Shown here in pieces: positions 36,057-38,305 of a DNA stretch of 64,000 nt (position 1 is the first letter of the stretch; every line of letters begins with the position of its first letter). The translations under genes were made by a program, and so were the position numbers. The notes beneath the pieces are model-generated. The model had not been told where the DNA came from and did no database searches. It saw only the letters and a list, made by a program, of their open reading frames with translations. Origin of the DNA: Acidobacteriaceae bacterium (lineage in GTDB: Bacteria; Acidobacteriota; Terriglobia; Terriglobales; Acidobacteriaceae). Where the stretch lies: assembly GCA_025360645.1 (NCBI GenBank), contig JANYBT010000101.1:1-64000 (forward strand), read 5' to 3'.

Positions 36057-37265
36057 ATGTCCAGTTATAATCAGCGCTTAGCAAAAGGTGCAAACGGAAA
36101 GATGCAACGTCCTACGGGCAGAGCGCTAAGGTTTACCAGCATTCAAGTCGAGAATTGGCGCAATTTCGGTAAGATCGAAGTTCCGTTACAGCGCCGTACA
36201 TTCATTGTTGGCCCGAATGCCTCAGGCAAATCGAACTTTTTGGATATTCTCAGATTCCTGCATGACATCGTTTCAGTCGGCCGGGGATTCGAGTTGGCGG
36301 TTCAGTCGAGAGGCGGAGTGTCAGGTCTCAGGTCTCTATTTGCACGCAGGTATTCGGATATTCATATCAGCGTAGCTATCGGAGTTGATGAGCATCCAGG
36401 CATTTGGCAGTACGAGCTTCGCTTCAACCAAGACAACCTCCAAAGGCCGGTGATTCGAGGTGAAAAAGTAACATTCGACGGCGCAACGGTTTTCGAGCGT
36501 CCCAACGACTCGGACAACTCCGACCCGGAACAATTGACGCAGACTTAATTGCAGCAGGTGAACGTGAACAAGGCATACCGGGAAGTGGCCGAGTTTTTTT
36601 ACTCTATACGCTACCTCCATATCGTTCCACAGCTTGTACGAGAACCAGATCGTTCGGTAGGCCGGAAGGATGATCCATACGGTGGCGACTTTCTGGAGCA
36701 GATTGCCCGAACGCAGGAGAAGACACAGACTTCGCGGCTTAAGAGAATCGAGGAGGCGCTTCGGGTTGCGGTACCACAACTAGAAGCGTTGGAACTCCAA
36801 CGCGATCCGGTCAAAGGAACGCCTCACCTCCGAGGCAAGTATCAGCATTGGCGCCCGCAAGGGTCATGGCAGACCGAAGAACAATTCTCCGATGGCACGT
36901 TGCGTTTGCTAGGTTTACTTTGGGCGGCCTTAGACGGGAGCGGGCCCTTGCTGCTGGAAGAGCCAGAATTGTCGCTCCATCCAGAGGTGATTCGCTACTT
37001 GCCGCAGATGTTTGCCCGAATCCAACGGAGATCAGGGCGACAGATAATTGCAACCACCCATTCGACTGAGCTTCTCCGAGAAGGAGCTGGTATGAACGAG
37101 GTGGTTCTCTTGGAGCCTGGGCAGGAAGGTACTGCAGCAAGACCCGCCGGAGCCCTCGCCGAAATCCGGGAACTCCTGGAGGGGGGCATCAACATCGCGG
37201 ACATCGTGATGCCTCGGACCAGGCCGGCGCATGCTGAGCAACTCGGCCTATTCGCCGACGAATAA
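36057..37265 (+). pseudogene. OLD/AAA15-type ABC ATPase with in-frame TAA
   Basis: One ATPase of about 402 codons interrupted by TAA at 36546-36548, with the same frame on both sides. The first part has an SMC/RecF-like start (FTSIQVENWRNFG) and Walker A GPNASGKSN. The second has the signature FSDGTLRLLGLL, Walker B PLLLEEPELSLHPEV and the His switch IIATTHS. The stop falls in LTQT*LQQVNVNK, which I would expect to be continuous, so a one-base change is likely. A TTG directly after the stop could allow a restart, giving split halves. The TOPRIM-like gene follows two bases after the stop codon. Such ATPase-nuclease pairs (OLD, PARIS, Gabija type) act in phage defence. Base composition is lower in GC than the neighbours. 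Confidence 0.7.
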
Positions 37266-37267
37266 CC

Positions 37268-37888
37268 ATGCCAGTTCCAGTCGTGGTAACCGCAGCCGTA
37301 GAGGGTTTGGCGGACGAAGTTTTGATCAAACGAGTCTGCTTGCACCTTGGTGTAACCGTCGGGCAGGTTTACGGACGATACGGCAAGTCCTATATCCTCA
37401 CACGGCTCAACGGATACAATCACTCCGCGCAGTTTCGCCATTGGGTCGTCCTGCTCGATCTTGACCATGATGCAAGCTGTGTTCCCGAGGTACTGACTCG
37501 ATGGCTCCCCATCCCCTCCCCCTTGATGCGCCTTCGTGTCGTCGTGCGAAAACTGGAGCCGTGGCTGCTCGCGGATGCTGAACGAATCGCTGCATTCTTG
37601 GGTGTGGCAGTTGCAAAGATTCCCGCCGACCCGGATAGCATTGCCGACCCCAAGCAGTTTATGGTGCAACTTGCGCGAGGCTCGAGACGCCGGGCGATCC
37701 GCGAGGACATGGTCCCAAACATTGGGAGCGGGCAACAGGTGGGCCCCGCGTATACATCGCGCATGATTGAGTTCATCAGTATCAAGTCGGGTTGGAGACC
37801 CGAGGTGGCGGCCAGCAATTCAGACAGCCTTCGGCGTTGCATGTCCGCAATTTCTAACTTGTCGGAGCAAGAATTCGACCCGCGATAA
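37268..37888 (+). CDS. DUF4276-like TOPRIM-type partner protein
   Basis: 206 residues. The N-terminus VVVTAAVEGLADEVLIKRVCLHLG has the glutamate of a TOPRIM fold, and WVVLLDLDHDASC the DxD pair, as in OLD-family nucleases and DUF4276/DUF4435 proteins. The last third is Arg-rich. It starts two bases after the ATPase stop, so the two are one operon and probably one complex. The family name is by pattern only. A nuclease role is inferred from the motif and context. Confidence 0.65.
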   Translation: MPVPVVVTAAVEGLADEVLIKRVCLHLGVTVGQVYGRYGKSYILTRLNGYNHSAQFRHWVVLLDLDHDASCVPEVLTRWLPIPSPLMRLRVVVRKLEPWLLADAERIAAFLGVAVAKIPADPDSIADPKQFMVQLARGSRRRAIREDMVPNIGSGQQVGPAYTSRMIEFISIKSGWRPEVAASNSDSLRRCMSAISNLSEQEFDPR

Positions 37889-37890
37889 CC

Positions 37891-37971
37891 GCTACGTCAA
37901 AGCGGGACCTTGAGCTGATCCACAAGCGACTGGCTGAGGCCGAACGACTCCACCGAAAGGGGATGAATTGA
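37891..37971 (+). pseudogene. HigB/Gp49-type toxin 3' remnant
   Basis: In the frame ending at TGA 37969-37971, the last codons read ATSKRDLELIHKRLAEAERLHR. This is the usual C-terminal helix of Gp49-like HigB toxins (KTPxxDIELAxxRL...). The stop lies one base before the antitoxin ATG, the normal toxin-first spacing. The rest of the toxin is missing; the TOPRIM gene ends immediately upstream. Confidence 0.55.
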
Positions 37972-37972
37972 A

Positions 37973-38305
37973 ATGTCTACGAAAAAGAAAACACGCGTCC
38001 GTGCGGCAAACAGTAACGATAACGTTTTTGCGGACCTCGGCTTGCCGCATCCCGAACAGGAGCTCTTGAAGGCGAAGCTCACTCTCCAGATCTACCGCTT
38101 GGTCAAGAGGCGCGACCTGACGCAAGCCGAGGCTGGCACCATCCTCGGCATCGAACAGCCGCACGTCTCGTTGCTCATGCGCAACCGTTCAGGTAATTTC
38201 TCAGTCGAGCGCCTGATGGATTTTCTTACCGCTCTGGGCCAAGACGTGAAAATTTCTGTGCGGCCGTCCTGCAAGGACCACGGACAGGTGTCCGTTGTCG
38301 CTTAA
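37973..38305 (+). CDS. XRE-family antitoxin (HigA-like)
   Basis: 110 residues with a central helix-turn-helix (LTLQIYRLVKRRDLTQAEAGTILGIEQPHVSLLMRNRSGNFSVERL) and the C-terminal FLTALGQDVKISVR typical of HigA-type antitoxins (COG5606). A ribosome site (AAAGGGG) overlaps the toxin remnant. With no intact toxin it is now an orphan. It might still act as a repressor of the ATPase operon or as an anti-addiction gene. Confidence 0.8.
   Translation: MSTKKKTRVRAANSNDNVFADLGLPHPEQELLKAKLTLQIYRLVKRRDLTQAEAGTILGIEQPHVSLLMRNRSGNFSVERLMDFLTALGQDVKISVRPSCKDHGQVSVVA

Follow-up and report, generated by a model that had tools for sequence, protein, structure and literature searches.

A HEC-01-type gene pair with a nonsense codon in its ATPase gene in an Acidobacteriaceae genome

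In the two-gene system PARIS, the effector AriB is held by a hexamer of the ATPase AriA until a phage trigger sets it free to cleave tRNA (PMC12409363); the trigger is Ocr (PMC12839542). The published definition of PARIS pairs an ATPase scoring at least 32 bits for AAA_15 or at least 27 bits for AAA_21 with a partner scoring at least 27 bits for DUF4435 (PF14491) (PMC9122126). HEC-01 is a catalogued candidate anti-phage system and, as such, a prediction. As described in PMC12988326, HEC stands for Hma-embedded candidate and derives from a “guilt-by-embedding” approach; the source preprint cited there is bioRxiv 10.1101/2024.01.29.577857. Outside that preprint, our literature search found no experimental test of HEC-01, which appeared only within a list of systems detected in Desulfovibrio piger, and it found no mention of DUF4276.

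Here we describe a gene pair in a 64,000-nucleotide stretch of an Acidobacteriaceae genome (the window). A preliminary description had read the pair as an OLD-type ATPase plus TOPRIM-like module, PARIS-related in kind and possibly a little-described variant. The first part of this reading is borne out. The second needs qualification, as the family is already catalogued as HEC-01 in PADLOC-DB, although it is little described in the sense that our search returned no experimental paper on it. With a probability of about 0.82, we consider the pair to be a degenerate copy of HEC-01 whose intact relatives probably act in a PARIS-like way, the ATPase serving as a sensor that keeps hold of a TOPRIM nuclease as the effector. 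By itself, the window pair reveals no new kind of system.

Family assignment and the TOPRIM-like partner

Gene A (36057-37265, forward strand) encodes an OLD/AAA_21-type ABC ATPase, and the Walker A (GPNASGKS), signature (FSDGTLR), Walker B (LLLEEPE), and His-switch (TTHS) motifs noted in the preliminary description are all present in its translation. The HEC-01A profile of PADLOC (PDLC04180) matches the N-terminal half of gene A at 9.3e-51 (profile positions 1-142 of 382) and the C-terminal half at 1.4e-94 (positions 144-380 of 382), with the AriA, AbiLi, GajA, and Old models of PADLOC-DB scoring far lower. Gene B (37268-37888, forward strand, 206 residues) begins two bases past the final stop of gene A and is matched in PADLOC-DB solely by HEC-01B models (PDLC04194, 6.7e-57, residues 5-200 to positions 4-199 of 204), which also match all 28 of its 28 aligned relatives. 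PADLOC, proposed earlier as a check, thus names both genes, HEC-01A and HEC-01B. By descent, the locus has the makeup of HEC-01, with A and B both present, adjacent, and on the same strand and with A first; a working system would have two uninterrupted genes, and here A carries an in-frame TAA.

Gene B is intact in the window. The TOPRIM-like glutamate and DxD motif reported for it correspond to E12 and D64-L-D66; in the alignment of 28 relatives, D64 is invariant, E12 and D66 are each present in at least 90%, and G39, E97, W99, D103, and K129 are further conserved positions. Within the conserved E97-x-W99 motif, the window protein has P98, compared with A, S, or T in the other 27 aligned sequences. 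The view that this partner resembles DUF4276 (PF14103) and not DUF4435 also holds: DUF4276 matches gene B at 13.5 bits, which is under the Pfam gathering cutoff of 30.2, and 23 of the 28 relatives match it at an E value of 0.01 or lower, whereas DUF4435 gives no match.

Since hhalign E values come from single comparisons, we judged these alignments by shuffled and reversed controls. Against DUF4276, the gene B profile aligned with a probability of 97 to 98% over 170 to 178 columns and a score of 73 to 95, compared with 17.3 or less in controls. Against the OLD TOPRIM domain the score was 40.7, and the EG and D-x-D motifs of the two profiles lined up; 30 shuffles of the columns gave at most 14.5, and reversing the alignment gave 12.7. 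An AlphaFold model of gene B built from four sequences (pTM of 0.76, mean pLDDT of 74, with residues 31-90, which include D64 and D66, mostly at 50 to 66) places strands at residues 5-10 and 58-62; E12 comes after the first strand and D64-D66 after the third, the positions that a TOPRIM fold requires.

In VIA-align comparisons with this model, the OLD C-terminal (TOPRIM) domain 6nk8 aligned over 162 residues with a Z score of 8.0, a value in the range that the tool terms common. Further OLD C-terminal domains gave Z scores of 7.0 to 7.2, and the OLD alignments span 159 to 162 of the 206 residues of gene B. The top match was the uncharacterized PH0156 (2p62; Z score of 8.9), and the others were ordinary Rossmann-like folds, mostly aligned over about 80 to 130 residues. 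AriB was not among the best 50 matches listed, which proves nothing about its likeness to gene B. Foldseek searches of PDB and BFVD with the model gave no match under an E value of 0.001; the top viral match, a RloB-like protein (probability of 0.87, E value of 0.1), is suggestive at most. Sequence searches of solved structures with gene B or its profile found nothing meaningful. Gene B is likely a TOPRIM protein, as had been suspected, on the basis of the hhalign controls, the model, and the OLD domain match, with moderate confidence in the fold.

Pairing, distribution, and proposed function

If the two genes form a module, their homologs should co-occur, which had been named as a check. In a survey of 396 genomes of the phylum, gene B matches were found in 23 genomes, and in 22 of the 23 loci a homolog of A lies directly upstream in the same order; the lone exception is a weak B match (E value of 5e-4). 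Among 23 intact pairs, A and B overlap by four bases in 13 and are 0 to 33 bases apart in the remainder. The pairwise distances of A and B in these pairs are correlated (r = 0.849, part of which is explained by shared descent), compared with a maximum of 0.319 over 2,000 label permutations. There is thus good support for A and B acting together.

The pairs occur in diverse contexts. In genome G083, a close relative of the window pair lies between HmaA and HmaB homologs, in a dense defence island (L014:2950-15795, reverse strand) that comprises HmaB, HEC-05, HEC-01B, HEC-01A, and HmaA, with a CBASS-type cyclase encoded farther along. Another pair, located through an ATPase search, lies in a prophage fragment beside a CI-type repressor gene (L047), and a phage contig of 27 kb has a distant HEC-01-type ATPase and TOPRIM-like pair close to a DNA polymerase-like gene (L048:5989-7757). 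On a 78.5-kb viral contig (L046:6028-10162), a HEC-01A ATPase is followed by a distinct HEC-01A-like ATPase (PDLC04184) along with an N6 DNA methylase; this arrangement without HEC-01B is possibly a B-less variant. By eye, the pair comes after a gene reading as gatB in two genomes that share a class but not a genus (L013:4173-8590 and L015:1949-5974) and is convergent with a gyrA-like gene in two other loci (L017 and L020), and such neighborhoods may be preferred insertion places. Searches with gene B found no relatives among the plasmids of PLSDB or the phages of INPHARED, and among viral contigs they found no match except the prophage contig retrieving itself.

By analogy with AriA/AriB in PARIS, we propose as the most likely mechanism that in intact relatives HEC-01A, an OLD-family ABC ATPase, would assemble, bind ATP, and hold HEC-01B inactive. 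On sensing an infection cue, HEC-01A would free or activate HEC-01B, a putative TOPRIM metal-dependent nuclease, which may then cut a vital nucleic acid and abort the infection. The location of one copy inside Hma is consistent with a further, doubtful reading, in which HEC-01 would serve as a backup for Hma and other restriction-type systems, its ATPase sensing anti-restriction proteins of phages, in the way that AriA senses Ocr, and its DUF4276-like TOPRIM protein cutting a target other than the tRNA of AriB.

Improbable, in our view, is that the genes form a housekeeping or DNA repair ATPase/nuclease pair with no part in defence. In most genomes the pair does stand alone beside housekeeping genes, outside defence islands, but its presence is patchy (11 of 100 relatives and 23 of the 396 genomes of the phylum), one copy lies inside Hma beside CBASS, phage-associated copies exist next to CI and on a phage contig, and in the window nothing visible has replaced the apparently inactivated pair.

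Interruption of the ATPase gene and proposed history of the locus

The preliminary description treated the ATPase as one intact gene and did not mention a stop. However, its reading frame is broken by a TAA at 36546-36548, which leaves an N-terminal part of 163 residues (36057-36545, forward strand), which carries Walker A, and a C-terminal part of 238 residues in the same frame (36549-37265, forward strand), which carries the signature, Walker B, and His switch. All eight of the nearest relatives with a readable A have a sense codon at this position and align across it without interruption, and both genes are free of stops in all 23 intact pairs, which come from other genomes and contigs. Because the nonsense codon parts Walker A from the other three motifs, no working ATP site is predicted to form, and gene A is very probably inactivated and this HEC-01 copy dead.

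The ATPase could in principle still be made as two chains, through reinitiation at a TTG or read-through of the stop, and the split protein could work with B in defence. Both halves retain full family homology and all motifs, and TTG, a possible start, is the codon right after the TAA. Against this, a split A is absent from all relatives examined, no clear ribosome site is visible by eye ahead of the TTG, and the split falls within the ATPase core, so we regard a working split system as quite unlikely.

The halves also bear on whether the pair is a true PARIS system of AriA and AriB. They score 57.7 (N-terminal) and 78.7 (C-terminal) bits for AAA_21, above the PARIS threshold for the ATPase, and the C-terminal half has AriA as its closest solved-structure sequence (E value of 1e-5). 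However, the HEC-01A model scores 171 and 315 bits on the two halves, compared with 53 and 77 bits for AriA models, and no DUF4435 match was found in gene B or in any of its 28 relatives. Since the published definition requires DUF4435 in the partner, PARIS membership is rejected, and we consider it very unlikely.

The stop was found in a second assembly. A search of genome contigs recovered a sole relative, a 3,437-base contig of another Acidobacteriaceae MAG (L012), which is 99.6% identical, with 15 differences, and carries the identical in-frame TAA; the two assemblies may share a source environment. Therefore, the stop is not an assembly error, and although the rest of the gene A frame is well conserved, the idea that the system is intact and the stop an artifact of sequencing or assembly is hardly credible when it recurs in an assembly with differences at 15 other positions. 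Between the two, gene A has three nonsynonymous and two synonymous codon changes and gene B two and none, which are too few for a verdict on selection. In our reading, the probable inactivation of this HEC-01 copy is recent.

Five bases past the stop of HEC-01B begins the remnant of a HigB/Gp49-like toxin gene (37894-37968, forward strand), so that the apparently inserted pair has its right edge here. It consists of the last 25 codons, with the 5' part missing, and shares 68% identity across 25 residues with positions 96-120 of an intact relative (L070; tblastn E value of 1.3e-5); no other significant piece of the toxin gene was found within the window. The HTH_37 antitoxin of the broken pair follows (37973-38305, forward strand; HTH_37, 88.1 bits). 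Its relatives in other genomes are 72 to 75% identical, and one has an intact toxin gene upstream. It appears that the HEC-01 pair inserted into a HigB-type toxin gene and replaced most of it, and that the nonsense codon was fixed in the ATPase gene afterwards. No syntenic empty site was recognized, as the antitoxin and the ABC-2 permease were both missing from the surroundings of the aminotransferase gene (the one upstream of the pair) in its close relatives. Because the surrounding genes are ordinary ones (a class V aminotransferase, YceI, an M48 peptidase, an ABC-2 exporter, and a phosphoesterase), the window locus is not a defence island.

The window therefore extends a catalogued candidate defence family, for which intact, testable relatives are identified, by a copy from an acidobacterium that was probably inactivated recently. 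It also illustrates how a two-gene module standing alone can be gained and then lost, through an apparent insertion in a toxin gene and then a nonsense codon.

Comparison with known systems

Two other systems share parts of this architecture. AbiLi models match gene A weakly, at 44 to 48 bits and far under HEC-01A, and AbiLii gives no match to gene B up to an E value of 1, so AbiL is rejected. Class 1 OLD nucleases and GajA of Gabija resemble the pair in joining an OLD-family ABC ATPase to a TOPRIM or, in the pair, TOPRIM-like part, and few whole-domain structure matches to gene B are better than the OLD C-terminal domain. However, those are single chains, whereas the ATPase and the TOPRIM-like partner are two proteins in the window pair and its 23 relatives, and the separate genes lead us to reject a class 1 OLD nuclease; in addition, the window pair lacks a GajB helicase. 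Gene B is like DUF4276 by hhalign, although the window protein itself stays under the Pfam cutoff for that family.

PARIS is similar in having separate genes for an AAA_21/AAA_15 OLD-type ATPase and an effector that is TOPRIM or, in HEC-01, likely so, but the HEC-01 partner is not DUF4435, and the tRNA target and the trigger given above are those of PARIS. HEC-01 itself has its gene content, order, and spacing in common with the window pair. Compared with HEC-01 inside Hma, the window copy differs in carrying a nonsense codon in A and in standing alone beside a truncated toxin-antitoxin pair.
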